Shown here: in pieces, positions 29,214-63,471 of the stretch
Layout of the letters: each line of letters opens with the position of its first letter
Position numbering within the stretch: position 1 is the stretch's first letter
NCBI RefSeq assembly: GCF_029962835.1
Contig: NC_080574.1
Coordinates: 41,346,501 to 41,410,500 of the forward strand
Length of the DNA: 64,000 nt
Direction of reading: 5' to 3'
DNA from: Magnolia sinica
Lineage: Eukaryota; Streptophyta; Magnoliopsida; Magnoliales; Magnoliaceae
Notes under the pieces: generated by a model
What the model was told of the DNA's origin: nothing
The model's database searches: none
The model's input: the letters and a program-made list of their open reading frames with translations, nothing else
Translations under genes and position numbers: made by a program

Positions 29214-29216
29214 CAC
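29214..29216. repeat. Target-site duplication CAC, left copy
   Basis: The 3-bp direct repeat next to CACTATG; the partner is at 59209-59211. Confidence 0.75.
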
Positions 29217-29249
29217 CACTATGTGAAAAATGGTGTGAAAAATGGAAAA

Positions 29250-30022
29250 AAATGACGGATTTAGAGACGGTTCTGGACCGTCTCTAAAATTGCTTGGTTT
29301 AAAGACGCTTTAGAGACGGCCGTAAACCGTCTCTAAACTTTTAGACGGCCCTTGACCGTCCTTAATATTGTCTTAAAAATTTGAACGTCCACAAATCATT
29401 TAAGACGGTCAAAAACCATCGTTAACTGCGGATAAAAGATGGCCATTGACCATCTGGAATAAGAGACGGTCATTCCAGAGACGGTCTCTGACCGTCTTAT
29501 ATGCAACCATTTGAGACGGTCAAAGACCATCCGTATTAGAGACGGTCATTAGCCGTCTCTTACTGGTAATTTGAGACTGTTAAGGACCGTCTCAATTAGA
29601 GACGGTCATTGGCCGTCTTTTCCTGTAATTTGAGACTGAAAATAGTCTGTATTAGGGATGGTTCTTAGCTGTCTCCATTTGAGACTGTCAAGGACCATCT
29701 CTATTAGAGACGGTCTTTAACCGTCTCATATGCGGTCATTTGAGACGGTCAAAGACCGTCCGTATTAGGGACGGTCATTAGCCGTCTTTTATTGGTAATC
29801 TGAGACTGTCAAAGACCGTCTCAATTATAGACGGTCATCGGCTATCTTTTACTGGTTTAATGAGATAGTAAAAATAGTCTGTATTAGGGACGGTCCTTAT
29901 CAGTCTCCATTTGAGACTGTCAAAGACCGTATCTATTAGAGACGGTCCTTAGCCGTCTTAGAGTGGTCATTTGAGACTGTTAAAGACTGTCTGCATTAGA
30001 GACGGTCTTAAACCGTCTCTAA
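29250..30022. repeat. CACTA subterminal repeats, left ('gagacggtc')
   Basis: About 25-30 copies of 'gagacggtc' or its inverse 'gaccgtctc' are arranged as short inverted pairs. Such arrays are usually transposase binding sites in CACTA elements (family knowledge). Confidence 0.85.
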
Positions 30023-30179
30023 TGCTCATTTCAAAAATTAAGAACAAAAAAATTTATGAATTTCGTTAAAAAAAAAGTTAAAAAGCTTAGAAAAATAACT
30101 AACAATGTTTAAGAAAAAATTTTAGATTTTGAAAAAAAATGTAATTTTATAAAAATCTAGATTTTGAAATAAAAATTAA

Positions 30180-30900
30180 GAACTTTGAATAATGTTGATA
30201 ATTTAAAAAAAAATAAAATTCGATAAGAAAATGATATTTTGAAAAAGAAAATTAAAAAAATTAAACAAAATTGTGAAAAAATTGACAAACTGTAAAAAAA
30301 TATATATTTTAAAAAAGGAAACTAGATTTTGTATTTTGAAAGGAAAAATTAAAAAGTTGTATAACCAAAGTGATATTTAAAAAATGATATTTTGAAAAAG
30401 AAAATTTTAAAAATTAAACAAAATTGTGAAAAAATTGACAAATTGTAAAAAAAAAATATTTTTTTAAAAAGAAAACTAGATTTTGTATTTTGAAAAGAAA
30501 AATTAAAAAGTTATAAAACAAAAGTGATATTTAAAAAATGATATTTTGAAAAAGAAAATTTAAAAAATTAAACAAAATTGTGAAAAAATTGACAAATTGT
30601 AAAAAAAAAATATATTTTAAAAAAGAAAACTAGATTTTGTATTTTGAAAAGAAAAATTAAAAAGTTATATAACAAAAGTGATATTTTAAAAATGATATTT
30701 TGAAAAAGAAAATTTAAAAATTAAACAAAATTGTGAAAAAATTGACAAATTGTAAAAAAATATATATTTTAAAGAAGAAAACTAAATTTTGTAAAAAAAA
30801 ATGTTAAATTTTTTTATAATAAAAATGATATTTAGTTAAAAGAGTAAAATAAATATACATTTTGAAAAAAAAATGTTAAATTTATTTGTGAAAAATAAAA
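30180..30900. repeat. AT-rich tandem repeat, about 154-bp unit
   Basis: The anchor 'gatattttgaaaaagaaaa' recurs at about 30233, 30386, 30540 and 30694. Each is followed by 'aaacaaaattgtgaaaaaat' and 'actagattttgtattttg'. The same satellite reappears at 45270-45785. Confidence 0.9.
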
Positions 30901-31053
30901 TTTCTAAATTATTAGGCACATCCACTAATTGAACCTTTAATCGTTATTGAACAATTTAATCAGTTCAAATTGAATAGTAAATAACTTCAGATGTTTAAAT
31001 CAAATTTCACTGAAATTGTTGATCAATATTGTATGCCCAATATCTTTCTCATA

Positions 31054-31058
31054 TGTAG
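31054..31058. repeat. Gypsy target-site duplication TGTAG, left copy
   Basis: Identical to 44096-44100. Confidence 0.9.
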
Positions 31059-32633
31059 TGTAAGCCCCGTATCCTAGACTGTACCGTTCCATAGACGTCC
31101 ACGGTCTTTCCGGTCGAATTTTGGCAACCTTCGACCCTTATCCGATGTTTGCGCGTGACCCTGAGATGCACACCGTTAACCCTAGTTGACTCAACCTAAG
31201 ATGTGTACCCTAGCAACCGCGCCATCGCCGCAGTTCCAATACCACGACTCCCGCGCTGATTCGATACTCTGGCCAGGAGATGCGGGCCAGCGATCGGTGC
31301 AAGGAAAACGCCGCGCGTGCAAATTACGAGAGAATCTCTACGAGATGTCACATCAATCCATCAATCTCATCATGTCAAGTACACATCACCTTTCACCCAT
31401 TCCCAAGCAACCACAAAAGTTAAAAAGTTCTTACAAGTCCATACCTTTCTTACACCAAAAACCCCCAAAAGTCAAAAATCTCTTACACACCCATCACTCT
31501 CTCTCCCTTTACAAGTCTCTCTCTCTTATTTTCAAACTCATTCCCAAGCAAGAGAGAAAGCACCATACGTATGAGCCTTTCCAAGCATTCCCAAGCATCA
31601 AAGGTGGCTCACTTTCTCACCCATTCATCTCCCATCTCAACCATCCAAACCTTATCTCCTCCGTTGGAATCAAAGCTAAGGAGCTAAGGAAGCCTAGGGT
31701 GCAAGAAGAAGCCAGTGGGTGATCTTGGATATTTTTCTTTTATTATTATTATTATTTTTTGATTTAATGGTCCACATATGTGGGACCCAACTTGATGTAG
31801 GATTTGTATCAAAAGGGGCCCATAGTGGTGGGGCCCCTCCATCCTCTCCGTTCTCTCTCTCCTCTGTTTTATTCTTTTTTTTTTTATCTTTTTTTTTGTG
31901 TGTGTATAATGGCTTGTGGCCCACTTGATGTAAGACCTTATCCACGCCATCCATTGATGTGGACCCCCATTGTTTTTTTCATGGGTGGTAAGTGCCATGG
32001 GCAAAACACAAATATCAGGCTAATCCAAAATAGGTGGGCCATGTGGGACCCACCTTGATGAGGCATGCCACCCGTCCGTCAGTGGAGTTGGCTAACAGTG
32101 AGTGTGCACTGACGTAGGTGTGCTAACAGTGGGTGTACACGGACGTGGGTGTACTAACAGTGTGGGTGTGCTAGCCAGGGAAGTGTGGACTGGCATGGGT
32201 CCATGGGACCCATCCACACCCTCCACCCCACGTGTGGGGCCCTCCTTGACGTGTTAACCCACCCAGATCCATAGCTCAGGTGGCAGACTAGTGAAAGATA
32301 TCTCGTTTCAACGTGGGGCCAGGCCCTAGTTCAACTGGCAGACTGGGGGAAAGATACCTTCCTTCAACACTAAGGTCTTGGTACCGTACCCTAGTATGGT
32401 GGCTAACAGTGGTGTGAGCGGACGGTGGGGTCCATGGGACCCACCCACACCGTCCATCCACTCCGTTAGGCCACACCATGGTGTATCTGTGGTATCCTAG
32501 CCGTCCACCGTCTTTGGACGGTGGGACCCACCCCATGTGTGGGGCCCTCCTTGATGCATGAGATTATCCAGGCCGTCCAAGGGCCTGGATGTCAGCACAT
32601 ATACATATATTATATATTTAATATGTTACATAT

Positions 32634-32683
<50 letters not shown>

Positions 32684-35082
32684 GTGGGCCCTACGTGGAA
32701 CCCACCTCTCCTTTCATGTGCATAACTGCACAGCAGCAGCTATACCTATATAAGGTATTATATATATTTTATATATACATGCCTTTTTAAAAGCATAAAG
32801 CTGCATTGGCAGTAGCCAGGGATATATACGTTAAATATATATTATCTCATATACTTCATACGGATATAGGGTGGGCCTACATGGGACCCACCTCTGCTCC
32901 TTTTTAGAGCAGCTGAGGCTGTACGTCCAGCGGTTGTGTAGCTGCTCTTGCACCCTTGGCATTAACTAGGTCCGTGAGACCCATTGTATATGTGGGTACA
33001 ATCCAAACCGTCCAGTTCTATGGGACCCTCTACTATTCCACGTGTAGGCCCCATCAGGGTGTATGTGTTGTATCTTCACGGCCACTCTTTGGGTGGTGGG
33101 GCCCACCATGACGTATGTATCGTATCCATACCATCCAACCACTTGTGAGATCATCTTATGGCATGAGAAAATGAGTGAGTCTGATCCAAAGTTCAAGTGG
33201 ACCCCACCATTTAATAGTGAACCGTGACATCTACCGTTCAACTTCTAAGGGCCATGGAAATTTGCAATGAAGCTGATATTGTTTTCATTTCATCCATCTC
33301 TATGTTAACTTATGAATGGGTCGGATCTCAAAAACACATAAGGGTGGGCCCAACTTGATATACATGAGGCCGTTGGTGCGGCCCAATTTGATATACATCT
33401 GGCCCATTTGACTCAGCCATTTAAATCGGCCCATTGATTCGGCCCATTTGATTAGGCCCGGTGCAATGTACTTAGGGCCCAGTTGGTTAGGCTGATATGA
33501 TATACGAGGCCCGTTATTGAGGCCCACCTTGATATGTATGAGGCCCATATGATTAGGCCCATCTTGATGTAGTTATGGTCCATCCATTGAGGCCCACCTG
33601 ATATACATAAGGCCCATGTGATGGGGCCCATTTGTTGTATCTAAGGCCCATGAGTCGAGGCCCACTTAGATGTACACAAGTCCATTACAATGTGTGACTA
33701 TACCATGGTTTGTGTAATGATGTTATGATGGTCGTACCTTGGGAGCAATGTTGGTTTGACGCCCACATTGTAAGAATAATGTTGGTTAAATGTCCGCATT
33801 ATAATTCTCCCTAGAGCCCATTATTAGGCCCATACTTATAGGTCGTCTAGGCCCATTTTCGTTATGAATAGCATCCATCACCATATAACATGTTTAGTAT
33901 AGTTCCGTGATTCATGGTCATATGTATCATATGTATGCTTGATATGAGAAGTGACTGATCATAGCATATGCCTTCAGGTAGATGGTTTAGGGGCTTCCGA
34001 ATGAGCGGTGTTACCTTACATGAGCGCACGATACGCGCAAGATTGCTGCATGACTGGATAGTGTGATTCATGCATTCGCATTGTGTGATATGGTACTGTA
34101 CGCCTTAACGACATTAGGGCCGTAGCCTCCACAGGCATATTGTGGTTGGCAGGATTGGATACCAAAAATCTTGTTCTACATGGGGTGCTATAGATATCCC
34201 TAGGTGAAAGTCCCTAAACCCTTATGGTACCAGGAGGTTGTTCCAACGTCTAGACCGAGTGGGTGCATGAGCGCCGAGTGCCGATTACTAGACGGTTGCG
34301 CTTTCCACTGTGTCGTGGTCGGTTGGAAGGGGGTGCGGCCTTACCCGCCCAAGAGGAGGGGGCAAAGCTAGGCTGAGTCTGACTAGCTCGAGGAATGGGT
34401 CCGCTATTGATGAGCCGAGCCCGATATTGGTAGGTGGATAGTGAGGTCTTTTCCACTCACCTTATTGTGCGCGATGGGGTGGCAATCTGACTTGGAGTGT
34501 ACTAGACCCCGGTGATATTCCAGAGTTGAGCTATATTGATATGTGGACTTAGATGAGGATTCACATGCTTGAGTTGCATTTCACACCGCATAGCCTTGGT
34601 ATGGCCGACATCATCCATGCCTCGCATCGCATAGCCTTGGTACGGCTAGTAGCATTCATGGATTCATCAGCATGGGCATTACTCTAATACTGCATAACTA
34701 CTACCTTGTGCACACACTTTCACCGCCCTCTAAGCTTTCCATAAGCTTATGCACGACCGTTGCGTGCAGGTGGTGTTGGAGCGCAGCAGCGCTGAGGCAG
34801 GAGCACTTTGCAGATCATCTTAGAGCTTTTTATTTATTATCATTGTATTTTTCCTTTTATGCTCATTGTACTTTTAAAGTTTTTGATCATAGTGGAAATG
34901 TGATGGAGTTTTTTGTTGTTGTTTGTGGGTTATGCTTATTACGAATTAAACTGGTGCAAGAAAATCCTCCTTGTAGCATCCCAGGTTCGGAACCTAGCGA
35001 ATGGGGTTCTACGGAGGTTGTCGGGGTCGGATTCGGCGATCGAGAATTTTGTGAGCCCGGTTTTTGAATTTGGTGCATGACA
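31059..35082 (+). repeat. 5' LTR of the Gypsy element
   Basis: It begins TGTAAGCCCCG and ends GCATGACA. It includes a (TA)n tract (about 32637-32679), a segment resembling the small inverted-repeat family (about 33080-33350) and a cluster of GGCCCA motifs (33340-33860). Confidence 0.93.
33340..33860. promoter_or_regulatory. Cluster of about 16 GGCCCA motifs in the 5' LTR
   Basis: GGCCCA repeats every 20-40 bp, each followed by a short 'tttgat(at)' or 'cttgata' spacer. GGCCCA matches the plant site-II element core bound by TCP factors (established knowledge). That it acts as an LTR enhancer here is inference. The 3' LTR has the same cluster at about 42330-42840. Confidence 0.5.
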
Positions 35083-35087
35083 GAAGT

Positions 35088-35099
35088 TGGTATTAGAGC
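35088..35099 (+). promoter_or_regulatory. Primer-binding site (initiator tRNA-Met)
   Basis: TGGTATTAGAGC lies 5 bp after the LTR. It differs by one base from the usual TGGTATCAGAGC complement of the tRNA-Met 3' end. Confidence 0.9.
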
Positions 35100-35263
35100 A
35101 TAACTCGGGAATAACCAAGAACAACATTACATGTCTGCTATGAGTTTAGAATGACCAAGTCCCGAAGTTTGGATAGTTTAACGATCTTCCGTTTTAGGCC
35201 CTTAACGAGCGTGCCTTCGAGAGTTTTCAAAGTTGATAGGCGCCTTCTCTTTTTCTGTAGGAC

Positions 35264-36530
35264 ATGCCGCGCAGGAGAGTGACCCGATCGACTCCCGCTC
35301 CACCACCGGATACTCCAGCTCCACCACCTGCGGCTCCCGCACTACCACCTACGATCCCTGCTCCACCACCAGAGATTCCCACTGCCTATCCTATGGATGC
35401 AGCTCCTCCACCAGAGACTGGTGTGGATCCGACCGTATCCGTGAGTGCCTTCCAGTTGCAGTAGATGTTACAGGCTGTGACGGCTGCACTTCAGGGGCAG
35501 GGCAGACACCCTGTTGTTTCACCGGCCTAGGCAGAACAGGAGCGCGCGAGTGCCCTCCTTCGAGAGTTCCAATGGCTCGATCCCCGGTGTTTCCAGGGTG
35601 AGCTAGACCCGACGGTAGCTGAGAGATGGCGCGCCGATGTGGAGAAGATATTTGAGACGATGGGATGCACGACTGAGCGGCGAGTCCGATTAGCCATATT
35701 TCTCCTCCATGGTGAGGCTGAGCACTGGTGGACGTCAGTCTCCAGAGTAGCGGGTGCTGATTTTGTATAGACTTTGGAGGATTTTGTAGATCGGTTTGAC
35801 CGACAGTATTTTCCTGATCACATCCGACGACAGCGGGCGTTGGAGTTCGAGGCCTTAGTGTAGGGTGATATGACGGTGGCTCAGTATGCCGCTCGTTTTG
35901 TAGCACTGTCCAGATTTGCACCATACTTGGTGGATGATGAGGAGCGGAGAGCCTACTGATTTGAGGGCGACTTGCGTTACAGTTTTTGAGGTCGTGTTAT
36001 TGGGCATGAGCTCCCGACTTTCGAGGGAGTGGTACGGAAGGCCCAGATTTTTAAGGCTGAGTGGGATGGTTCTCAGTCTGATCGTGGTCAGAGGAGAGAC
36101 CGGAAGAGGCAGACTCCTTCCAGTGATTCCCAGCAGGGTCGACCATAGCAGAGGTGCATAGGTCGCCTAGCCTTCCGAGCGCCAGCAGCACCTCCAGCAC
36201 CACCTCCGAGGTAGTTTATCGGCTCTTATTTTAGGTGTGGTGCGACGGGGCATCGTATGTGGGAGTGTCCTCGCCCCCAGCAGCACTAGCAGCAGCAGAG
36301 AGGTCTACAATAGCCTCCATCACAGCAGCAGCGACAGCAGCCCCCACCACCGAGGCCACCTCAGTAGCAGCATCAGCACCAGCCTCCGAGACAGTAGCAG
36401 CAGAGGCAGCAGTTTTGACCGTCTCAGCGACACCAGCAGCAGCAGCACGCTCAGAGGGGACGACGCCTCCCCAGCTGGCTCAAGCTAGGTTTTATGCGGC
36501 TCAGCAGGACCCGCAGTCATCCGGAGGAGT
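35264..36530 (+). pseudogene. Gypsy gag (capsid, zinc knuckle)
   Basis: ATG at 35264 opens a Pro-rich leader (TPAPPPDTPAPPP). It is followed by a retrotransposon gag domain at about 35590-35940 (LDPTVAERWRADVEKIF, HGEAEHWWTSV, DFVDRFDRQYFP, FAPYLVDDEERRAY). Next come a basic and Gln-rich stretch and a zinc knuckle near 36225-36275, reading YFRCGATGHRMWEC. The first Cys of the C-x2-C-x4-H-x4-C motif is Tyr, which should abolish that metal site. About ten in-frame TAG codons occur, nearly all where neighbours or the family suggest CAG (Gln), plus TGA where CGA (Arg) is likely. Gag would form the particle that packages element RNA; this copy cannot. Confidence 0.88.
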
Positions 36531-36534
36531 CGTC

Positions 36535-39500
36535 GAGGGTATACTTTTAGTATCTGCATGCATTGCATGTGTATTGTTTAATTCTGGTGCATCACATTCT
36601 TTTGTGGTCGAGAGTTTTTGCTGATCGACTGGTTTGCCTTTGGAGTCTGCTCGTGAGGGCTTATCAGTATCGACTCCCTTGGGGAAGACTGTAGTGTTGG
36701 GCTGATTTTGCTCGTCTTACCCCGTTCTGGTTGGAGATATCTTTTTGCCTTCCGATCTGTTTACTTTGCTGATGTCTAAGTTCGACGTCATCCTGGGCAT
36801 GGATTGGCTTGCCGAGTACCACGCCATATTGGATTGTTCCACGAGGACAGTCACGTTTTGTATACCGGGCTTGCCGCAGTTCTAGTTCATTCCTGAGCCC
36901 AGAGGAGAGCCGTTATCTTGTTTGATGTCATGTGCCATAGAGGAGCCCATAGCGGTGAGCATCGACCAGTTGCCTGTGGTTTGCGATTTTTTCGATGTGT
37001 TCTAGGAGATTCCGGGATTACCGCCTCACCGACTCACTGAGTTTCAGATTGATCTCGTACCTGGTACTGCGCCTATTTCAAAGGCCCCATATCATATAGC
37101 ACCGTTGGAGTTACGGGAATTGCAGAAGCAGTTGGACGAGTTGTGCGAGTTGGGCTTTATCTGTCTGAGCAGTTCACCGTGGGGAGTGCCGGTACTCTTC
37201 GTGAAGAAGAAGGATGACTCGTTGAGGCTCTACATAGATTACTGCGAGCTCAATAATGTCACGATCAAGAACAAGTACCCGCTCCCGAGGATTGATGATT
37301 TGTTTGATCAGCTGCAGGGTGCATAGTTTTTTTTCGAAGATTGACTTGCGTTCCGGTTATCATCAGATTCGGGTCCGAGAGGAGGACATTCCGAAGACGG
37401 CATTCAGGACGCGTTACGGTCATTTTGAGTTTCAGGTCATGTCCTTCGGACTGACCAATGCGCCCGCAGTGTTCATGCAGCTGATGAATGAGGTCTTCTG
37501 CTCTTATCTTGATAAGTTTGTTGTAGTCTTCATTGACGACATTCTGATCTATTCGAGGACCCGTGAGGAGCACGAGCAGCATTTGGAAGTTACGTTGCAG
37601 ACCCTCCGCGCACACCAGCTGTATGCGAAGCTGGAGAAGTGCAAGTTTTAGCAGGAGGAAGTGAAGTTCCTCGGTCACGTGGTGACGAGGGAGGGTGTCG
37701 CAGTGGACCCCTCGAAGGTTGAGGCAGTGCGTCAGTGGGGCTAGCCCACGAACGCGTCCGAGATCCGCAGTTTCCTTGGTTTAGCGGGCTACTACTAGTA
37801 TTTTATTGAGGGCTTCTCTTGTATTGCAGCCCCGCTAACTAGGTTGACTCGGAAGGGCGCGGAGTTTATTTGGAGTGATGCCTGCGAGCGAGCATTTATG
37901 AAGTTGAAGGACCGCCTCATGTCTGCTCTTGTCCTCACTCTTTCCTCTAGGAGTGATGGTTTTATTGTATTTACCGATGCCTCGCATATTGGTTTGGGTG
38001 CTGTCCTAATGCAGCAAGGAAGACCAGTGGCCTTCGCGTCTCGTCAGCTCAAGGTCCATGAACTGAACTACCCCACGCATGATTTAGAGTTGGCTGCAGT
38101 TGTCTTCGCACTGAAGGTGTGGAGACACTATCTCTACGGGGTTAGGTTCGAGCTCTTTTCTGATCACAAGAGCTTGAAGTACGTCTTCTCGCAGTCTAAG
38201 TTGAACATGAGGCAGAGGCGCTGGATGAAGCTCCTAAAGGACTATGATTTCGATCTCTAATACCACCCGGGTAAGGCGAACGTGGTGGCGGATGCCCTTA
38301 GCCGTCAGCCACGAGGCCTGGTGGCGCATATGATGATTCAGGAGTGGCGGATGCTCGAGGATAGAGCAGAGTACGACTTTGAGTTTGGCTTGTAGTCTTC
38401 TATGTGCAGTTATCGAGCCTGTCGATTCAACCCTCTCTTGTCGCAAGGGTGATCGAGGCTCAGCAGGCAGACGAGTCGTTATAGGATTACCGAGCAGAGG
38501 CAGCATCTGATAGTCAGGTTAATTAGCAGATTGGTACAGATGGCGGACTTCGCTTCAGAGGCCAATTATGTGTCCCATATATTCCTGAGCTATGCAGAGA
38601 TCTTATGACCGAGGCATATCGATCGCGGTTTTCTATCCATCCTGGCTCGACGAAGATGTACCGAGATATGAGGCGACAATATTTTTGGGCGGGGATGAAA
38701 CGCCAGATCGCTAGTTTTGTGGCCGAGTGTGACACATGCCAGCGTGTCAAGGCCGATCATCAGAGACCCCCTGGTATATTGCAGCCGTTGAGTGTCTCGA
38801 TGTGGAAGTGGGAGCACGTGTCGACAGATTTCATTATGGGCTTGCCGAGAACTCAGCGCGGTCATGACGCCATTTGGGTTATTGTGAATCGTCTGACGAA
38901 GTCGGCACACTTTATTACGATTCGTGCGACTTGGCCTTTGGACCGGCTTACGAGATTATTCATCGAGGATATTGTGAGACTACATGGCGTTCTAGTCTCG
39001 ATCGTTTCTGACCGAGACCCGAGGTTCATGTCTCAGTTTTGGGGGAGCTTCTAGAGAGCGATGGGGACTGATTTTCAGCTCAGCATCGCGTACCATTCGG
39101 AGACCGATGGCCAGACCGAGAGGGTCAACCAGATCCTTGAGGATATGCTTCGGGCCTACGCAATTGATTTCGGAGGTAGCTGGGATGAGCATCTGCGATT
39201 GGCTGAGTTCGCATACAATAACAGCTATCAGGCGACCATCGGCATGGCTCCTTTTGAGGTACTATATGGTGGACCATGCAGATCACCGTGTTGTTAGACC
39301 GAGGTTGGAGAGTGTCGTCTCCTAGGTCCCAAGCTTGTGCAGAGACGTCAGAGGCTATTGATATCATCAGGCAGAGGATGCGCACAGCTCAGAGCCGGCA
39401 GAAGAGTTTTGCTGATCGTCGGCTTTGTCCCTTGGAGTTTGATGTGGGGGACCATGTGTATCTCAAGGTCTCGCCCATGAAGGGCGTAGTTCGATTTGGA

Positions 39501-39866
39501 GCGAAGGGCAAGCTTGCCCCGAGATTCATAGGACCTTTTGAGATCACTGGGCGCGTTGGTGCCGTAGCTTATCGGCTTGCCTTTCCATCTTAGTTGTCTG
39601 GCGTCCACAACGTTTTCCATGTCTCCATATTGAGGAAGTGTGAGTCAGACATCGTTCCTTTTATTGACTGACAACCGTTAGAGGTTCGTGAGGACGCTTT
39701 CTATATTGAGCAGCCAGTCCGTATCCTTGATCGGACGGAGCAGGTCCTCCGGACTAAGATCATTCCGTTGGTGAAGGTTCAGTGGGGTCACCATTCTGTA
39801 GAGGAGGCTTCTTGGGAGCGCGAGGCTGAGATTCGACAGCGTTATCCCCACCTTTTTTATGATTAA
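36535..39866 (+). pseudogene. Gypsy pol (protease, RT, RNase H, integrase, chromodomain)
   Basis: Domains in order: protease near 36540-36610 (LFNSGASHSF, with Asn replacing the catalytic Asp); RT 37105-37700 ([32 protein letters not shown]); RNase H about 37860-38330 ([13 protein letters not shown], ending NVVADALSR); integrase about 38600-39290 with zinc-finger Cys (CDTCQRVKADHQRPPG), STDFIMGLP, SDRDPRF and the Glu in TERVNQILEDML; a C-terminal chromodomain-like end (VKVQWGHHSVEEASWERE) closing with TAA at 39864. Frameshifts occur near 37323 and 39320. About eleven TAG, one TAA and several TGA codons interrupt it. Lineage features point to Del/Tekay. Confidence 0.93.
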
Positions 39867-39983
39867 TTGTGTTGTATGTTGTATGTTATCTCTGATTTTA
39901 TATAGTGATGTTATGTTTCTTCTCCCTCTTGAGTTATGTCTAGTTGTGATGATTATGTAAATTTTGAGGATGAAATTTTTATT

Positions 39984-39995
39984 AGGAGGGGAGAG
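39984..39995 (+). promoter_or_regulatory. Polypurine tract
   Basis: aggaggggagag lies one base before the 3' LTR, the expected plus-strand primer site. Confidence 0.9.
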
Positions 39996-39996
39996 C

Positions 39997-41624: not shown

Positions 41625-41662
<38 letters not shown>

Positions 41663-44095: not shown

Positions 44096-44097
44096 TG

Positions 44098-45050: not shown

Positions 45051-45269
45051 ATCAATCTTGTTTGCCTAATATCTTTCTCATATGTAGTATGATTGAGGCG
45101 AGTAACTAGTCAAATTGAGAGTAATGATCAGTAAAATAGAGTGAATGGACGGTGTCGATATACATAAAATATATCAAGGTGGGCCCTACACTGTTAGAGT
45201 AACACCCATGAAGGAGTTACCTAAATAGTGAAATGGTACTATAAGGTCACCTCATAGGAACTTCCTATG

Positions 45270-46149: not shown

Positions 46150-46880
46150 TGATGGAAAAATATATGGACGGTGTTGATATACGTAAATATATCAAGGTGG
46201 GCCTTACACGATTAGAGTGACACCCATGAAGGAGTTACCTAAATAGTGAGATGGTACTATAAGGTCACCTCATGGGAACTTCCCATGAGGTTAATCTGTG
46301 TGCGCCCCACATATAAAAGCATTTGGTGGGGCCCACATGAGTTTTGGATGTGTATGAAACTTGGTTTGACTCCTCATCCAAGTGGGACACGCATAATGAA
46401 TGGGCTGGATCTATGAACCACATCTAGGTGGGCCCAATAAATAATTATGAAAGGTTTTAATGAGAGGGTAACCCTCTCAACTATAGTATGTGGTGTGGCC
46501 CACCCAAGTCATGAATTGACTTTATTTTTAAGCTCGTGGCCCACCATGGAATGGTGCATTTGACTGACGGGGTAGATCCAAAGTTCAAGTGGACCCACCA
46601 TAGAAAAGAGTGGGATAGTGACACCCACCATTGAAACCTTCTTAAAGCCCGCCGCGATGTTTATTTAAGATCCAACCTGTTTATAAGTTAATACAGACAT
46701 GGATGCAGTTGAAAATTGGTCCGACCCCTCATCCAAGTGGCACACACAAAATGAACGGGTTAGATATGTGAATCACATTTAGGTAGGCCTAATATATGAT
46801 TATGAATGTTCTAAGGAAATCCCTCCATTATATTATGTCGTGTGGCCTACATTTAGGCTGATGTTTGTGTTTTCCCTTCA

Positions 46881-46917
<37 letters not shown>

Positions 46918-48470: not shown

Positions 48471-48499
48471 ACAAAGAGGGGTTAGGGCGCCGACCCTAA

Positions 48500-48665
48500 C
48501 CACTCCCTCTCCCTCCATCTCTCCTTCTCTCTCTCTGCGCCTCTCCCTCTGTCTGTCTACGCCTCTCCCTCTCTCTCTGTCTACGCCTCTCCCTCTCTCT
48601 CTCTGCCTCTCTCTCTACCTCTCTCTCTCTCTCCGCTCGATCTCTCTCTCTCTCTCTCTCTCCAT
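48500..48665. repeat. (CT)n-rich tract, leader-like
   Basis: About 165 bp of CT-rich sequence lies directly upstream of the first ATG of the exon below. In plant genes such tracts often lie in promoters and 5' UTRs. Confidence 0.85.
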
Positions 48666-48769
48666 CTCCACTCTCGAACCCCCCCTCTCCCTCCGGCTCG
48701 GATGTCATCGGCTTCCGTACCGAATCCGGCGTCCTCCTCTTGCCAATTGCAGCCTGCAATAATCAAACG

Positions 48770-49050
48770 ATGGAGATTGATCCGGAAGAGGCAGTTGCTG
48801 GAGAGACGAAGGGCCTTCTTGGGGAATGCCGCAGCGGTTCTTCGTCACAGAAGAGAAGGCGGGGGGCGGTGCCTGGGCAGGGGAGTTTGAGTGTGGTAGA
48901 TCAGGTGCATGCATTGGTGGGCCACAAGTGCTTGGAGATTGTGGGCCCCATCATGATGTGTGGTTAGGGTTTCGTTGAGGGTGTGGTCAGGTTGGCAGTT
49001 TCTGAAATCAAGGATAGCAGCTGCTTCTTTGTTTACACATTTGAGGTATC
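48770..49050 (+). pseudogene. Host-gene first exon, unidentified (F-box-type gene possible)
   Basis: After the CT-rich leader, ATG 48770 opens MEIDPEEAVAGETKG, then SSSQKRRRG and VDQVHALVGHKCLEIV. The frame is interrupted at 48965 by a TAG. A second frame near 48980-49045 reads VWSGWQFLKSRIAAASLF followed by THLRYPA, which could be the rest of the same exon after an indel. The overall pattern reminds me of a plant F-box family, but from memory only and without a visible F-box, so I do not assign it. The GC-rich composition differs from the AT-rich surroundings, as expected for a captured promoter plus first exon. Confidence 0.4.
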
Positions 49051-49075
49051 CTGCTATTTCATCTCTCTTTTCCAA

Positions 49076-50538
49076 AATGTTTTTAATTTTAAAGTTTTTT
49101 TTTAATTATTAATTTATGGATGAGGAATTTAGAGAAGTCTTGATAATATGGTAAACTGCATTTGCATGCATGCATCTGCGTTTTGGTTTGGCAAGTATTG
49201 CTACATTTAGAGGGCATATTTGGTGATCTAGACTGTCTGTTTGGCAGGCCTCACCGTCGATGGGCTGTGGTGTGAAGAATGTGTGCATCTGTTTGGATAA
49301 GAAGTCCAATCGTTTAGATGGCTGGCATTGTTTAGAATCCATTGATTGTGCAATGATTTGTGTATTGAAAATTTGACTATGTTGTGCATTTTTTGTTGAA
49401 TGTCATATTATCTCTTTCATTAGTTGGTTTTGCTTTGATCTTTGCAATCATTCTTTACTTGTAAATGATTTATTAACAAAGCCCCCTTCTCATTTACCAC
49501 CAAAAAGGTGAGTTTTCATTTACTAGTAAATGAGGAGAGGGCAGTGGCTTTATTTTTTTGAATGAAAGCCTATGAGGTAGATTTCAATTATTTATTTATT
49601 GTTATTATTTTTAATACCAATTTCAGCCTATTCAAACATTGTAAATGATTTATTAGTAAATCATTAACCACCATCCAAATGACCCCTAAAATAGGAGAGG
49701 CATTCAATTTATGCTGACAATATGTTTACACTTGCTTGGGAAGTGGATGATGTTGTGACAAACTGTTTGCCTTTGCATTTCCCTCGATAAGGGAGTACCC
49801 CCTATATATTTTATTTCTTTTTCAAAAGCTCAAATGAAGGAAACGAGTTTGTTTTTGATGTGATGTTTTCAATGACAATTTTAGAGGAAAAATGTTTTAT
49901 TTTGTGAGATTGCAATCCAAACAGTTTCAAATACAAAGGGAAAGCATTTTCCAAGACTTAAATTTTGCAAAACAAACAAGTGCAAAGGGTTTGGCTGATG
50001 TAGTTTACCTCTTGCCTATGTTGCATGTTTGTTTTGCTTTGCTTCCTTGATTTGCACTAACTGAACAAGACCTAAATGGAAATGCATTTTTTTGCTGTTT
50101 GTTAGCACCTATCTAATAAGCAAAGATTAGGAGCCTTTGGAAAGGTTTTGCTGGTAGTAGCTTGTGCCCCAACTCTTTCCAATTTAATGCAAGAAAGGAA
50201 CTTGGGTTTTCAACAGGGCAGCATGCATGGCAGCCTCTCCTTTTCCTTTTAATGCAAGAAAGGAACTTGGTTACTATTTTTCTGTATTTTTGGTGTTTTT
50301 GTTTTTCACAGTTTAGTTTGCATGTAAGCGATATCGACTTCCTAGTTTTTATAGTGATTAAAATTTTCCCTTTTTACCAATTTATGTGCATTTTCTGCTT
50401 AAATATTTGGTTTTCATGTTTTGACAGGATCAAGTTGACCCAAGTCTATTTTTTTGGGTTTATGCATAATGGAAATCAATGAATTTAATTCCCACATTGG
50501 TTTCTACTGAAATCAGTGGGAATTTCCACACTGATTTT
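49076..50538. other. Non-coding stretch, no recognised gene
   Basis: A/T-rich sequence with intron-like composition. Only short frames. A short repeated phrase 'aatgcaagaaaggaacttgg' occurs twice (about 50187 and 50252), a 65-bp local duplication. Confidence 0.5.
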
Positions 50539-50930
50539 GAATGTCTTAAGGAAACCTTTCTCCACTACATTTAAGTGAGTTACTCGTTACCTTTACCAGA
50601 GTAAACTCTGTGGGGTTCACCGTTATTTATTTATTTTATTCACTCCATTCATCCATGCTAACATATAATTTGAGGTCTAAAGAAGAAAAAGGAAGCATAT
50701 CCAAAGCTCAAGTGGACCACACCACAGAAAATAGTGTGATTGAACCTCTACCATTTAAAATTTCTTGGAGGCCATAGAAGTTTTGGATCAAGCTGATGTT
50801 TGTGTTTTCTATTCATTTATATATTTTTGATATTATGAACAACCTTTAACTGTTTTTGGACAATCTGATCAGTCCAGACATGAAGAGTAAATAACTTCAG
50901 ATGTTAAAATCAAAATTCACTCAAATAGTG
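50539..50930. repeat. About 390-bp duplicated segment, copy 2
   Basis: Matches 44660-45050 at roughly 95% by eye. The match stops at about 50930, exactly at the start of the coding segment that follows. Confidence 0.85.
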
Positions 50931-50932
50931 AG

Positions 50933-51426
50933 GTGGCATCTAATAAGCGTCTCATTGAATATTCAAGTCCTGTCAAGGTTTCACTGCCTGCTGGAGGTGG
51001 CAATAGTGAGGAGATACCAAGGGTAATTATTAAAGATGGGAGTCCATTGAAACTCATACAGGATTATGCTTCTGATGACAGTGCTGACAATGATAAAGGC
51101 ACATGCCTAGAAGATGTCAGCCCCGTAAGGGTTTTGCCACCAGTTACACAGGATATCTCATGTGTGAATGAAGATAAGAGGAACGATATGGATTCAGATT
51201 TAGATGTAAAGAATGTTTCCACAACAGAAATAGGATTTAGCATTGCCACTGGGTTGACAGAATCTGCCCAAAATTCAGAAGCACATTATGTGCAACGATA
51301 TGGAGATGCTCATTATGCTGTGGAGGCACATGAAGCTAAGAATAGCATGGGAGTGGAATTGAGTGCTGATAAACATGATTTTTCACATGAGGAAGGAAAG
51401 AGCTTAGATGTGATTATGACTACATG
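50933..51426 (+). pseudogene. Acidic host-gene exon, unidentified
   Basis: An open frame of about 165 codons with clear protein character: LIEYSSPVKVSLPAGGG, EEIPRVIIKDGSPLKLIQDY, ASDDSADNDKG and LEDVSPVRVLPP. It is acidic, Ser/Asp-rich and probably disordered, as in nuclear regulatory proteins. I do not recognise the family with confidence. Phrases such as 'DGSPLKLIQDYASDDS' made me consider SWAP/SURP splicing proteins and TFIIS-domain proteins, but I could not decide. The exon begins at the edge of a duplicated non-coding segment and ends at a donor-like 'gtatgt' (51427), so both borders look like capture junctions or splice sites. Confidence 0.6.
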
Positions 51427-51472
51427 GTATGTTGTTTGACCTTACATATATGTTTATTTATGTTTTGAGCAG

Positions 51473-51706
51473 GTTGCAAGATGCACAGAAATAATAAACC
51501 AGAATTCTGAGGAAGCAAAGTATGTAATAAATGTTAAGCAAATTGCCAAGGTATATTTTCTACGTAATGTTTTGTTATTTCAGGTTGGTATAACTTAAGA
51601 ATCTTGGCACATTTTGATGGACCTAATTCTTTCTGTACCTGCAGTTTGTTGTTGGTTTGGGCGATAAAGTTTCACCAACAGATATTGAAGAAGGCATGCG
51701 TGTCAG
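51473..51706 (+). pseudogene. 26S proteasome regulatory ATPase RPT1 (subunit 7), two-exon fragment
   Basis: Exon one (51473-51550, acceptor gcag, donor gtat) encodes [20 protein letters not shown] then VKQIAK. Exon two (51645-51706, acceptor gcag, donor gtaag) encodes FVVGLGDKVSPTDIEEGMRV. Together they match the OB-fold region before the AAA+ module of RPT1, the ATPase of the 19S proteasome base that unfolds substrates. The Walker A and B motifs lie further downstream in the real gene and are absent here. The 46-bp gap between the preceding exon's donor (51427) and this acceptor is too short for a normal plant intron. It looks like a fusion of two intron halves from different genes. Confidence 0.92.
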
Positions 51707-52659
51707 GTAAGTTCAATTTTCCACTCTATCTATGGTTTCCATTATTTATTTCTTTGACTTTCTTTCCTCTCTTTTTTTTTTTTTTTTGGGAAATGGCTTT
51801 CCAATAATTTGTTCATCTTGGATTTAATTAGGATGTTTCATCCATGATAAGACATGCAATTGTAATTGACATGACTATTACTCTTTTACCCTGGCTTTGG
51901 GACCAGCCATGGTAGAGGTACACATTGACATCACTCACAGCGCAAGCCACCACTTCTTTTGAAAGATAGCAAGAAACTTTCATTGAAAGGTGCTGAGGTG
52001 GTGCCAAAAAACATACACAAGCCAAACAAGGCAAGAAGCACAAACCACCACTTGTAATTGCAAAAGCAGAATCCTGGTGTGGAAACATAGAACTGCACCA
52101 AAAATGGAAAATGGAAGTGAAAAATCAAGGTAAATGCTTCTCATAAGGTCTGCTTTATTTAGAGTAGAATTAGATAGATCAAAAACTGATTACCAAAATC
52201 AACTCATCATTACAAAAATAAAAAATAAAAAATCCTTTACATATTAGTTTTGAAGGAAGATCTAGAATGCACTCAGCTAATGCTTTTGAAGTAGAAATTA
52301 CATTATTCAAGAAGTGAGTAATGAGTATTTTAATTCGCATATAAGAATGCTTTTGCATAAGCATTTTTCCAATTCCAGGATAAGCACCTGATGACCCAGT
52401 GCCATAAGGGTGGTATAACATTCAAATTCACAAGTTACCAAGGATATTTGTGCATGTGTTGTTGTTTTTAGATACATGCATACCAAGACATGTATTCTAT
52501 GTTATTATGTAAAACATCAATGATCAATAATATTTGTTGTGTCCCCACATGATATTCAGTGATTGAACTAGTATTGATCCAAAGTAAAACTGATAACTCT
52601 AACTAATGTATTAACATTCATCACTAGGGACATGCTGTAGTCACAAAAATCACAAAGGT

Positions 52660-52728
52660 AAACCTATAACCTAAACCTATAACCTACAACATTAACCTAA
52701 ACCTAAACCTATAACCTAAACCTAAACC
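52660..52728. repeat. Short telomere-like patch (aacctaaacc / aacctataacc)
   Basis: About 69 bp of the same hexamer-based sequence as the main array, 0.7 kb upstream of it. Confidence 0.85.
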
Positions 52729-53060
52729 ATTATTAAATATATTTTGTTCCTTTCTTTTCCTTGGACTCCACATTTCCAAACATGACCTAAAAAGTGCAGA
52801 TAGTTATGACGGTTAATTCCCATTTGCTGAAAGCTCTATAAATTTATTTTATCCTTTTTTTTTGAAAGGTAAATTCATTTTTTCTTATCCCTTATATTGT
52901 TTCCCAGTTATATTTGTGTTGGTTTTAAAGTACAGCTAGCGATAGAAATTATTGGTCGATTGTGGCTTGTAGACAAAGGGATGAGTAACCAACAATACGA
53001 ATATGGGAGGCCTTTCCTAAGTATCCAGATGCTTTTAGATATAATTATGTTGTTTTTAAA

Positions 53061-53420
53061 TGTATTAACTCGAAATTGATGGAGCAAACCCGGATGTGCG
53101 TCGGACCTATCCGGATGTTGAGTGGGGGTCCCTGGAAGGTGAGAACCGCTGTTATGACTATGATGAAGCTGTCCATTTCCTATGGACAATATTGGAGTGG
53201 CCTGGCCATTTGGACAAGCCATGTTTATGTATTTACTCGAAATTGATGGAGCAGACCCGGATGTGCGTCGAAGTTATCCGGATGTTGAGCGAGGGTCCCT
53301 GGAAGTTGGGAACCGCTGTTATGACTATGATGAAGCTGTCCATTTCCTATGGACATCATTGGAAGGGCCTGGCCAATTGGAGCAGGCCGTGTTTATATCT
53401 GTGTTTGCAGGGACCACACC
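53061..53420 (+). repeat. 167-bp tandem duplication with coding character
   Basis: Copy 1 (53061-53227) and copy 2 (53228-about 53394) are about 90% identical. In one frame each reads LEIDGADPDVRR, then SYPDVE.GSLE, then NRCYDYDEAVHFLW. The best copy continues to AVFISVFAG. This looks like an exon of an unidentified host protein duplicated once. The two copies are not in the same frame, because the unit length is not a multiple of three. It directly precedes the telomere-like array. Confidence 0.7.
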
Positions 53421-56400
53421 CTTAACCTATAACCTAAACCTATTCTCAAATCCCAAAACTTATAACTACAACCTAAACCTATAACCTAAACCTAAACTAA
53501 ATTCCCTAAACTTTAACCTACAACCTAACCTAAACCTATACTTATAACCTAAACCTATTCTCAAATCCCAAAACCTATAACCTAAACCTTAACTTAAACC
53601 TATAACCTATAACCTATAACCTGAACCTATTACCTAAATTCAATTCCCTAAATCTTAACCTATAAGCTAACCTAAACCTATACTTATAACCCAAACCTAT
53701 TCTCAAATCTCAAAACCTATAACTATAACCTAAACCTTAACCAAAAACCTATAACCTAACCTAAACTTAAACCTAAACCTATAACCTTAACCTTAACATA
53801 TAACCTTAACCAAAACCTAAACCTAAACCTAAACCTATAACCAAAACCTATTCTCAAATCCCTAAACCTAAACCTAAACCTAAACCAATAACCTAAACCT
53901 ATTCTCAAATCCCTAAACCTTTAACCTGTAACCTAAACCTATAACCTATAACCTAAAACTAAACCTATAACCTAAACCTAAAACCTAAACCTAAACCTAC
54001 ACTTATAACCTATAACCTAAAGCTAAAACTTAAACCTATAACCTAAAACCCAAACGTAAACCCGATCTCGAACCCGAACCCAATTTCCTAAACCTAAACC
54101 TTAATGTATTCTCAAATCCCTAAACCTAAACCTACACCTAATCCTAATCTTAACTCCCTAACCTAAACCTAAACCTAAACTTGAAAACCCAAACCTAAAC
54201 CCGATCTCGAACCCGAACCCGAACCCGATTTCCTAAACCTAAACCTAAACTTGAAAACCCATACCTAAACCCGATCCCGAACCCGAACCTGATTTCCTAA
54301 ACCTAAACCTTAACCTATTCTCAATTCCCTAAACCTAAACCTAAACCTATAACCTATAACCTAAACTTAAACCTAAAACCTAAATGTATTCTCAAATCCC
54401 TAAACCTAAACCTACACCTAATCCTAATCTCAACTCCCTAACCTAAACCCAAACCTAAACTTGATCCCGAACTCGAACCCGATTTCCTAAACCTAAACCT
54501 TAACCTATTCTCAATTCCCTAAACCTATAGCTTATAACCTAAATTGAAACCTAAACCTATACCTTAACCTTAACCTAAACCTAAACCTAAACCTAAAACC
54601 TATAACATAAACCTAAACCTAAAACCTAAATGTATTCTCAAATTCCTAAACTTAAATCTACATCTAATCCTACTCTCAACTCCCTAACCTAAACTTAAAC
54701 GTAAACTTGAAAACCCAAACCTAAACCAGATCCCGAACCTGAACCCGATTTCCTAAACCTAAACATTAACCTATTCTCAATTCCCTAAACCTATAGCTTA
54801 TAACCTAAACTGAAACCTAAACCTAAACCTAAACCTAAACCTAAACCTATAACCTATAACCTAAACCTAAACTTAAAAACTAATGTATTCTCAAATCCCT
54901 AAACCTAAACCTACACCTAATCCGAATCTCAACACCCTAACCTAAACCTAAACTTAAACCTAAACCTAAACTTGAAAACCAAAACCTAAACCCGATCCCG
55001 AACTCGAACCCGATTTCCTAAACCTAAACCTTAACCTATTCTCAATTCCCTAAACCTATTGCTTATAACCTAAACCGAAACCTAAACCTATACCTTAACC
55101 TAAACCTAAACCTAAAACCTAAATGTATTCTCAAATCCCTAAACCTAAACCTACACCTAATCCTAATCTCAACTCCCTAACCTAAACCTAAACCTAAACT
55201 TGAAAACCAAAACCTAAACCCGATCCCGATTTCCTAAACCTAAACCTTAACCTATTCTCAATTCTCTAAACCTATAACTTATAACCTAAACCTAAACCTA
55301 AACCTAAACCTGTAACATATAACCTAAACCTAAACCTAAAACCTAATGTATTCCCAAATCCCTAAACCTAAACCTACACCTAATCCTAATCTCAACTCCC
55401 TAACCTAAACCTAAACCTAAACTTGAAAACCAAAACCTAAACCCGATCCCGAACCCGAACCCGATTTCCTAAACCTAAACCTTAACCTATTCTCAATTCC
55501 CTAAACCTAAACCTAAACCTATAACCTATAACCTGAACCTAAACCTAAAACCTAAATGTATTCTCAAATCCCTAAACCTAAACCTACACCTAATCCTAAT
55601 CTCAACTCCCTAACCTAAACCTAAACCTAAACTTGAAAACCCAAACCTAAACCCGATCCCGAACCCAAACCCGATTTCCTAAACCTAAACATTAACCTAT
55701 TCTCAATTCCCTAAACCTATAGCTTATAACCTCAACCTCAACCTAAACCTAAACCTAAACCTAAACCTATAACCTATAACCTAAACCTAAACCTAAAAGC
55801 TAATGTATTCTCAAATCCCTAAACCTAAACCAACACGTAATCCTAATCTCAACTCCCTAACCTAAACCTAAACCTAAACTTGAAAACCAAAACCTAAACC
55901 CGATCCAGAATCCGAACCCGATTTCCTAAACCTAAACCTAAACCTTAACCTATTCTCAATTTCCTAAACCTATAACTTATAACCTAAACCTAAACCTAAA
56001 CCTATATCCTATAACCTAAACCTAAACTTAAAACCTAAATGTATTCTCAAATCCCTAAACCTAAACCTACACCTAATCCTAATCTCAACTCCCTAACCGA
56101 AACCTAAACCTAAACTTGAAAACCAAAACTTAAACCCGATCCCGAACCCGAACCCGATTTCATAAACCTAAACATTAACCTATTCTCAATTCCCTAAACC
56201 TATATCTTATAACCTAAACAGAAACCTAAACTTAAACTTAAACCTAAACCTATAACCTAAAACCTAAACCTAAACCTAAAACCTAATGTATTCTCAAATC
56301 CCTAAACCTAAACCTACACCTAATCCTAATCTCAACTCCCTAACCTAAACCTAAACCTAAACTTGAAAACCAAAACCTAAACCCGATTCCGAACCCGAAC

Positions 56401-58058
56401 CCGATTTCCTAAACCTAAACCTTAACCTATTCTCAATTCCCTAAACCTATAACTTATAACCTAAACCTAAACCTAAACCTAAACCTATATCCTATAACCT
56501 AAACCTAAACCTAAAACCTAAATGTATTCTCAAATCCCTAAACCTAAACCTACACCTAATCCTAATCTCAACTCCCTAACCTAAACCTAAACCTAAACTT
56601 GAAAACCAAAACCTAAACCCGATCCCGAACCCGAACCCGATTTCCTAAACCTAAACCTTAACCTATTCTCAATTCCCTAAACCTATATCTTATAACCTAA
56701 ACCAAAACCTAAACCTAAACCTAAAACCTAATGTATTCTCAAATCCCTAAACCTAAACCTACACCTAATCCTAATCTTAACTCCCTAACCTAAACCTAAA
56801 TCTAAACTTGAAAACCAAAACCTAAACCCGATCCCGAACCCGAACCCGAACCCAATTTCCTAAACCTAAACCTTAACCTATTCTCAGTTCCCTAAACCTG
56901 TTACTTATAACCTAAACCGAAACCTAAACCTATACCTTAATCTAAACCTATAACCTATAACCTAAACATTAACCTAAAACCTAAATGTATTCTCAAATCC
57001 CTAAACCTAAACCTATACCTAATCCTAATCTCAACTCCTTAACCTAAACCTAAACCTAAACTTGAAAATTCAAACCTAAACCCGATCCCGAACCCGAACC
57101 CGATTTCTTAAACGTAAACCTTAATGTATTCTCAACTCCCTAAACCTAAACCTACACCTAATCCTAATCTCAACTCCCTAACCTAAACCTAAACGTAAAC
57201 TTGAAAACCCAAACCTAGACCCGATCCTAAACCCGAACCTGATTTCCTAAACCTAAACCTTAACCTATTCTCAATTCCCTAACCTAAACCTATAACCTAT
57301 AACCTAAACATAAACCTAAAACCTAAATGTATTCTCAAATCCCTAAACCTAAACCTACACCTAATCCTAATCTCAACTCCCTAACCTAAACCTAAACCTA
57401 AACTTGAAAACCCAAACCTAAACCCGATCCCGAACCCGAACTCGATTTCCTAAACCTAAACCTTAACCTATTCTCAATTCCCTAAACCTTAACCTATAAC
57501 CTAACCTAAACCTAAACCTAAACCTATTACCTGCACTTATAACCTAAACCTAAGCTTAAAACCTAAACCTAAACCTAAAATCGAAATGTATTCTCAAATC
57601 CTTAAACCTAAACCTACACCTAATCCTAATCTCAACTCCCTAACCTAAACTTAAACCTAAACTTGAAAACCCAAACCTAAACCCGATCCCGAACCCGGAC
57701 CCGATTTCCTAAACCTAAACCTTAACCTAAACCTATAACCTAAACCTAAACCTTAACCTAAACCTAAACCAAAACCTATAACCTAAACCTTAACCTATAA
57801 CCTAAACCTTAACCTAAACTTATAACCTATAACCTAATCCTTAACCTAAACTTATAACCTATAACCTAAAACCTAATCCTAAACCTAAACCTAAACTATA
57901 ACCTATAACCTAAAACCTAAACCTAAACCTAAAACCTAAATATATTTTCAAATCCTTAAACCTAGACCTACACCTAATCCTAATCTCAACTCCCTAACCT
58001 AAACCTAAACCTAAATTTGAAAACTCAAACCTAAACCCGATCCTGAACCCAAACCCAA
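53421..58058. repeat. Telomere-like (CCTAAA-based) array with higher-order units
   Basis: About 4.6 kb built mainly of cctaaa and cctata hexamers, with ccctaaa, 'aacccgaacccgatcccg' and 'ctcaactccctaacc' variants. From 54105 it is organised in higher-order units. The anchor 'tgtattctcaaatcccta' recurs at about 54105, 54385, 54631, 54894, 55134, 55347, 55557, 55804, 56040, 56287, 56523, 56732, 56986, 57125, 57328 and 57587, with a decayed one at 57941. Spacing is mostly 203-263 bp. The C-rich strand is on + throughout. Confidence 0.93.
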
Positions 58059-58070
58059 TTGTTGTAATAT

Positions 58071-58272
58071 TGTAGCCCAATCACATGGCAAGAAACAAGA
58101 ATGTATCCCTTTTAACACATGCCCCTTTTTACAAAGCTTTAATTTTTGTTGTTGTTTCTATTAACTTGAATTGTAGCCCAATCACATGGCAACAAACAAG
58201 AATGTATCCCTTTTAACACATGCCCCTTTTTACAGAGTTTTAATTTTTGTTGTTGTTTCTATTAACTTGAAT
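58071..58272. repeat. 101-bp tandem duplication
   Basis: 58071-58171 and 58172-58272 are almost identical ('tgtagcccaatcacatggca' to 'gtttctattaacttgaat'). It lies right after the telomere-like array. Confidence 0.92.
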
Positions 58273-58489
58273 TGAAACACTTTTTTGCATTATTTGCTCG
58301 CAATAGTTTTATTTTAATGATCAGTTTTATTTTATAAAAGTGCCCACTTTTTTGGAAGAAGTTTATGCAATTCTTCATGATTCTGAATTATAATGTTTTG
58401 TTGGTTTAATATTTTTTTTTTTAGATGAAAGACACAAAAAGAAAATTGTTGCTAATTTTTTTTCCTTTTTTTATTGATGATGTTAAACT

Positions 58490-58640
58490 TACATGTATTT
58501 ATGCGTGGATGAATGTAATGTGGATAAGATTGTTTGTGTTTGGATGGATGTAGTTTATATTTGGATGGATGAGTTTATGTTTGGATGAATGTTGTTTATG
58601 TTGGACTTACGTAGTTTGGGTTTAGATGGATATGAATGTG
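58490..58640. repeat. Degenerate minisatellite 'tttggatggatgtagtttat'
   Basis: About five imperfect units of 22-26 bp. Confidence 0.7.
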
Positions 58641-58734
58641 AATATGATGAAATATATTATATAACAGGTGTATATCAGGAAGAACACGATGAAATATATT
58701 GTAACATGTGTATGTTGGTCCTTGTGCTTTGAAG

Positions 58735-59195
58735 GCTCATAAGGGACGGTCTATGACAGTCCTTTTTAAGGACGGTCTGTGGCTGTCCTTTGAAGGCTCA
58801 TAAGAGACGGTCCATGACAGTCCTTTTTAAGGACGGTCCATAGCCATCCTTTGAAGGGCCATAAGAGACGGTCCATGACAGTCCTTTTTAAGGACGGTTC
58901 ATGGCCGTCCTTTGAAGGCTCATCGAGACGGTCTATGACAGTCCTTTTTAAGGACGGTCCATGACCGTCCTTTTAAAGGACGGTCGATGGCTGTCCTTTG
59001 AAGGCTCATAAGAGACGGTCCACGACCATCCTTTTAGAGGACGGTCCACGACCATCCTTTTTTCATCAATAAGAATGACGGTTTTCGATCATCCTTTAAG
59101 TAATACAACACGTCAAAATTTGACGGCCCATGGGACGGTCCATGACTGTCCTTTTTGGTCATTTGAGTCGGTTTTGGACCGTCCTTTTTTCATAG
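58735..59195. repeat. CACTA subterminal repeats, right ('gacggtcc')
   Basis: Units of about 60 bp ('aagagacggtccatgacagt' and 'cctttttaaggacggtcc') repeat about 5-6 times, then degenerate copies lead to the terminus at 59208. They share the 'gacggtc' core with the left end. Confidence 0.85.
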
Positions 59196-59208
59196 TTTTG
59201 GCGTAGTG

Positions 59209-59211
59209 CAC
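59209..59211. repeat. Target-site duplication CAC, right copy
   Basis: Partner of 29214-29216. Confidence 0.75.
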
Positions 59212-63442: not shown

Positions 63443-63471
63443 TACCCTCCCATATATTTTCCGACCATTGA

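Follow-up and report, generated by a model that had tools for sequence, protein, structure and literature searches.

CACTA transposons that capture genes, and CACTA transposons that contain satellite arrays, are already known. The Jozin CACTA of Chenopodium is 16.5 kb long and has a 5.55-kb tandem array near its 3′ end (PMC8978399), Tgm-Express1 of soybean is 5.7 kb long and holds five gene fragments (PMC1947982), and a putative autonomous CACTA of 20.5 kb was found inserted in an F3′H allele of soybean (PMC2613891). For interstitial telomere-like repeats, a review of seed plants gives dispersion via transposition as a possible mechanism only (PMC8621592). Here, a CACTA-bounded element of 29,992 bp is described from Magnolia sinica. 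It occupies positions 29217-59208 of the window, by which the whole stretch of 64,000 nucleotides that was analysed is meant (C2:41346501-41410500 of genome G000), and it lies inside a long interspersed nuclear element (LINE). We consider it very probable that this is a non-autonomous, gene-carrying CACTA of about 17 kb that was moved in trans and was later enlarged by a nested retrotransposon.

The element comes closest to Jozin, with which it shares a 3′-proximal array within a large CACTA, and captured gene fragments are present in some Jozin elements as well (PMC8978399). The Jozin array is, however, a 171-bp satellite, and Jozin elements were located by Transposase_21 (PMC8978399), whereas the array of the window family is built of CCTAAA and no transposase was found in ten copies. 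Tgm-Express1 likewise displays host gene fragments as exons and introns between CACTA ends, but it is far smaller than the element here, which in addition has a large array and a block recurring at at least 30 other loci (PMC1947982). Pack-CACTA members of the Pack-TYPE elements share the non-autonomous state, the CACTA terminal inverted repeats with target-site duplications (TSDs), and internal host coding DNA (PMC8903248); the string 'telomer' does not occur in the main text of that paper, whereas the window family has a telomere-like array. The 20.5-kb soybean element is similar in size to a relative on C7 that is described below (PMC2613891).

A CACTA element in a LINE and a retrotransposon in the CACTA

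The boundaries of the element and of its target are the following.

27559-29216, minus strand: downstream half of the LINE, with RVT_3 (RNase H-like) in 27559-27990
29214-29216, unstranded: left TSD CAC, a single CAC in LINE relatives
29217-29245, plus strand: 5′ terminus CACTATG..., with the 12-mer TGTGAAAAATGG doubled
29217-30030, plus strand: 5′ subterminal gacggtc repeats
58720-59208, plus strand: 3′ terminus ...GGCGTAGTG, with subterminal gacggtc repeats
59209-59211, unstranded: right TSD CAC, pairing with the CAC at 29214-29216
59212-63514, minus strand: upstream half of the LINE, with RVT_1 in 59314-59739; outer limit a guess

The element opens with CACTATG and closes with CGTAGTG. GACGG/CCGTC was counted 30 times in 29217-30030 (shuffle mean 0.8, maximum 5) and 17 times in 58720-59208 (shuffle mean 0.7, maximum 4); the remainder of the window outside both subterminal regions held 51 in total. 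The sequence and the shuffle counts thus bear out the ends, the repeats at both of them and the CAC/CAC flanks that the original prediction, made from the letters of the window, had named. CACTA terminal inverted repeats, a 3-bp TSD and short subterminal repeats at both ends, the marks of CACTA (En/Spm) elements, are all present. The tandem doubling of TGTGAAAAATGG was seen in the window copy but in none of the ten other copies fetched from the genome. An Rfam scan of the window gave zero matches at gathering scores.

It had also been claimed that the CACTA can be removed cleanly from the LINE, leaving one CAC. Both flanks, about 200 bases each, were fused with one CAC and searched in the genome (G000, 1.84 Gb), and the best 40 of 98 candidates were scored. 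The join was spanned by 23 of these 40 rows; two rows were the window's own flanks, and the others were one-sided or short pieces. In base-by-base alignments, three LINE relatives (L032, L033 and L034) were gapless at the join, kept ...CCACCCTCT... with a single CAC and had residues neither missing nor extra there, at 74-75% identity to the joined flanks over the aligned part, and the claim of a clean removal is upheld. One-base gaps occurred in these alignments away from the join. The predicted passage from IRG to WRSRC in one frame reads as claimed (...LIDKVDSRIR and, across the join, GWRSRCLL...), but the frame is short, with stops nearby on both sides. The one-base gaps and the short frame indicate that the window copy of the LINE has decayed, and the proof of the clean join is therefore the DNA alignment and not the frame. 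The host LINE has an RNase H-like domain and a reverse transcriptase domain, copies related to it bridge the join, and the domains are consistent with the L1 clade, to which the original prediction had pointed. No Pfam match was obtained for three open reading frames (ORFs) further upstream in the half at 59212-63514, hence the guessed outer limit. Two further LINE relatives, at C6:100456609-100459160 and C6:100253922-100256473, have an interruption of about 2.2 kb near the CACTA join point (query 190-198).

Within the CACTA, a second insertion was found.

31054-31058, unstranded: left TSD TGTAG of the nested retrotransposon
31059-44095, plus strand: nested Ty3/gypsy long terminal repeat (LTR) retrotransposon, with LTRs 31059-35082 and 39997-44095
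44096-44100, unstranded: right TSD TGTAG, with the empty site in copies c19a, c2 and c15

The LTRs, of 4,024 and 4,099 bp, begin with TG, end with CA and are 94.4% identical over 4,015 aligned sites (Kimura two-parameter distance 0.059). A primer-site-like stretch follows the left LTR, and the right one is preceded by a purine-rich tract. Between them follow RVP_2 (36235-36621), RVT_1 (37238-37648), RNase H (37799-38260) and the integrase zinc domain (38527-39054), and this order of protease, reverse transcriptase, RNase H and integrase is a mark of Ty3/gypsy. The TG...CA repeats, the 5-bp TSD and the domain order together identify an LTR retrotransposon, and its uninterrupted target, CTCATATGTAGACATGTAAAATG, is present in the sister copies c19a, c2 and c15. 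With one 5-bp TSD the retrotransposon makes up 13,042 bp, and the CACTA itself is the remaining 16,950 bp, which is an ordinary size for its family. To speak of a CACTA near 30 kb was therefore misleading, and a 30-kb CACTA as such is rejected, the nested retrotransposon accounting for 13 kb.

Captured host-gene DNA, a candidate partner and the telomere-like array

Apart from the retrotransposon, the interior is composed of the following segments.

30056-30910, plus strand: AT-rich stretch, common to family members, in which a 154-bp unit is repeated in tandem at 30228-30793
44101-45275, plus strand: CACTA body of the c19a/c2/c15 type
45277-48413, plus strand: CACTA body of the L046 type, at whose start the AT-rich array recurs
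48414-50531, plus strand: block with short ORFs and a CT-rich leader, shared with L046 and, starting at about 49400, with L036-L038
50532-50929, plus strand: 398-bp fragment of the CACTA body (95% to 44651-45048) inside the captured region
50930-51436, plus strand: ORF segment, a probable host-gene exon
51473-51550 and 51645-51706, plus strand: two exons of RPT1 (26S proteasome regulatory subunit 7) with AG/GT borders
52867-53424, plus strand: conserved segment of the CACTA, which includes a 167-bp tandem duplication, just ahead of the array
53420-58055, plus strand: CCTAAA-rich, degenerate, telomere-like array of 4,636 bp

The body appears chimeric, with a putative join near 45276 at which the c19a type passes into the L046 type. 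Fold-back repeats at 47945-48461, inside the CACTA, and at 16269-16683, outside it, are related to each other and resemble miniature inverted-repeat transposable elements.

The two RPT1 exons encode 26 and 20 residues, are separated by an intron of 94 bases and, when joined by hand, matched 26S proteasome regulatory subunit 7 at 5.7e-22. The ORF segment at 50930-51436 is probably an exon of a captured host gene, and a Pfam match to it was absent. In the ten fetched copies, 48414-50531 and 50930-52866 were unmatched with the low-complexity filter on; with the filter off, only short CT-rich or CCTAAA-type matches were seen among those inspected. A genome search with the block 50930-52650 (54 matches in all, the best 40 of 78 candidates scored) gave matches of more than 1 kb at at least 30 other loci, at 87-97% identity. 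The captured block adjoins CACTA body that reaches the array start in L036-L038, and CACTA body with the 5′ subterminal region in L046; at a fifth block locus, on C7, the family 3′ end is located 12.5 kb downstream. CACTA context was seen at these five, and we infer that the same holds for all 30 copies of the block.

The middle block of the sister copy c19b contains pieces of SRP54 and of a MYND finger. For the window and the ten copies, 186 middle-block ORFs of 62 aa or longer remained once low-complexity ones had been dropped, and the longest 150 were scanned with Pfam. The matches were to SRP54 (3) and zf-MYND (1), with two weak ones (E about 0.008), and no transposase domain was found among these 150. 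The earlier statement that no transposase is visible holds for the scanned parts, but reverse transcriptase and integrase domains do exist, in the nested retrotransposon. Host coding DNA inside the element and no transposase in the scanned ORFs agree with a Pack-TYPE (Pack-CACTA) element.

A transposase-bearing relative was located at C7:71872145-71893933. In a genome search for Transposase_21 the best 150 of 1,669 candidates were scored, and 147 of the 150 places were compared with 133 entries of family 3′ ends, one or more of them duplicated, and with 111 of 5′ ends. The C7 element is 21,789 bp long with TTA/TTA as TSD, its 5′ terminus CACTACGTGAAAAATGAGAAAAAATG lying at 71893933 and an exact family 3′ end at 71872145. 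It contains PF13963 (6e-19), then the start of PF02992, with an open frame of 794 aa at the tnp2 domain. PF02992 tnp2 between the same termini, a criterion of the CACTA superfamily, was thus found in this partly read element and not in the window copy. The C7 leader is 72-81% similar to the leader of eight of the ten fetched copies; c5 matched C7 in the array alone and c8a in reverse-oriented repeats alone. A short CCTAAA tract just upstream of the C7 tnp2 ORF matches the arrays of all ten, and CCTAAA occurs 15-17 times in each of three 300-base samples of array-like DNA, taken at distances of 2.5-6.8 kb from the 3′ end. The C7 element is predicted to be the likely transposase source, or autonomous partner, of the family. 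The absence of transposase from the scanned ORFs fits a non-autonomous carrier of host genes in a family with such a relative.

The array of the window contains CCTAAA 275 times and CCCTAAA 29 times, and exact CCTAAA covers 36% of it against 1% in one shuffle. All ten fetched copies have such an array, of 1.7-12.9 kb, with the strand unchanged. It may be called telomere-like by resemblance only. The tandem telomere heptamer was rejected as the array unit, as the hexamer dominates and CCCTAAA is never in tandem. Seven contig-end stretches, fetched to define the true telomere, were of no help: one was all N, and the other six held at most one CCCTAAA or TTTAGGG.

The array could be what is left of a real telomere, acquired for instance from a healed end or where a chromosome broke, and not a repeat grown inside the transposon. 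The resemblance of CCTAAA to the plant unit CCCTAAA and the one-stranded course of the array throughout would agree with such an origin, which we nevertheless regard as unlikely: the unit is a hexamer, the heptamer is roughly a tenth as frequent in the counts above with a longest run of one unit, AAACCCTAA is absent from the window array, and the C7 element has the short CCTAAA tract just upstream of its tnp2 ORF, from which an array could have grown as from a resident tract.

The CACTA family across the genome

The first 284 and the last 229 bases of the element each matched at least 40 loci, the window included. Exact 30-base 5′ termini numbered 86 genome-wide and exact 33-base 3′ termini, with two degenerate positions, 245; both reversed-pattern controls gave 0. 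For the pairing of ends, 47 5′ ends on contigs 1-8 were entered (six fetched copies omitted, c6 kept) and 100 of the 245 3′ places were listed, from C1 to C8:7.2 Mb, so that the pairing is incomplete. Among the 3′ matches listed, an exact same-strand 3′ end was present within 60 kb of 16 of the 47 5′ ends. Fifteen of these 16 paired members span 13.8-24.1 kb and one 55.6 kb. The ten fetched copies are 7.5-24.0 kb long, and seven have perfect 3-bp TSDs (ATT, ATA, CCT, CCA, AAT, AAT and GGA). Both termini of the window element belong to one CACTA family, and a search for further copies with both, as had been proposed, has thus found them.

Membership in a family of true giants of about 30 kb is very improbable. 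The total span of 29,992 bp and the one pair of family ends on C1 that lie 55.6 kb apart would speak for it, but the retrotransposon has its own TSD, its site is empty in three sisters, and 15 of the 16 paired members fall in the range given above. The C1 pair, on the same strand at C1:65335144-65390762, is either a copy enlarged by nesting or a pairing by chance. Still less credible is that the two termini are separate, unrelated insertions with unrelated genomic DNA between them, as the mosaic build with its second AT-rich array copy and other internal duplications might suggest, because the clean single LINE join and the shared TSD already refute it, while other copies, of 7.5-24.1 kb, are delimited by these two ends in this order and much of the interior, retrotransposon and captured block aside, is collinear with the sisters.

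Three other features were observed elsewhere in the window. An ORF at 6055-6606 encodes a Med26/TFIIS helical-bundle domain (9.4e-06) and is likely a host gene piece in the flank. Minisatellites at 14007-15787 and 22473-22881 are built of units that resemble ACAACCACGACCCATATAACATG and measure 16, 23 and 39 bp. A direct repeat, 3341-3713 and 7274-7633, is 88% identical, with starts 3.9 kb apart.

Probable history and meaning of the gene-carrying CACTA

The termini, the TSDs, both empty sites, the family, the array, the captured exons and the tnp2 locus between family termini were observed directly. The history behind them would have been as follows: A non-autonomous, En/Spm-like CACTA of about 17 kb entered the LINE and duplicated the 3-bp CAC. 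It was presumably mobilised in trans by a tnp2-encoding relative, as the shared termini suggest, and host-gene fragments at the place where the relative has its transposase gene point to the same. The genes were most likely captured through error-prone gap repair, with putative template switching, because a stretch of the CACTA's own body lies in among intron-bearing copies at the DNA level. Thereafter the form with the captured genes would have multiplied, as the long matches of its block at other loci indicate, and the kilobase array near the 3′ end accompanies every sampled copy. A Ty3/gypsy retrotransposon of 13.0 kb landed in the CACTA and brought it to its present 30 kb, after the LINE insertion as we infer.

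Several observations weigh against this reading. No parental genes were located in the rows listed for the captured block, which were sorted by length and context only. Only one tnp2 place lay within 25 kb of a family end in the right orientation, against 0.24 expected by chance, so the case for the C7 partner rests on the termini and the TSD found afterwards. The C7 element was read in six stretches, 7,020 bases with about 1.1 kb of flank among them, and its gene structure is accordingly partial. The ten fetched copies were the best 5′ matches and no random sample; three of them are without a clean 3-bp TSD, c8a having TAC/ATC. The termini of c8b (5′ end) and c8c (both ends) are damaged, with flank duplications of 13-16 bp (AATCACCAAGATT; CTTCAAATCCCCTTA). 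These duplications, at L015/L016 (c8b) and L019/L020 (c8c), are perhaps the result of end repair following failed excision.

No description of a CACTA with a telomere-like array was recognised in the literature searched, judged mostly from titles and abstract openings, and a gene-carrying CACTA family in which such an array is a regular constituent looks new. Tentatively, and with more doubt than confidence, a telomere-like array of kilobases may have become a working component of the transposon in a CACTA lineage. By transposing, the lineage would have brought one-strand telomere-like DNA, and an amplified chimera of host genes with it, to hundreds of interstitial sites. The number of sites refers to the 245 exact 3′ ends counted, and the array was read in the window, the ten copies and the C7 samples. 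The family itself illustrates one concrete way for interstitial telomere-like repeats to disperse, as part of a DNA transposon. The locus also demonstrates how a transposon of normal size can be told apart from a nested retrotransposon within a 30-kb insertion. The family is also a natural system within a single genome, where gene carriers that are non-autonomous occur together with their likely autonomous partner, with a chimera that has multiplied and with empty sites.

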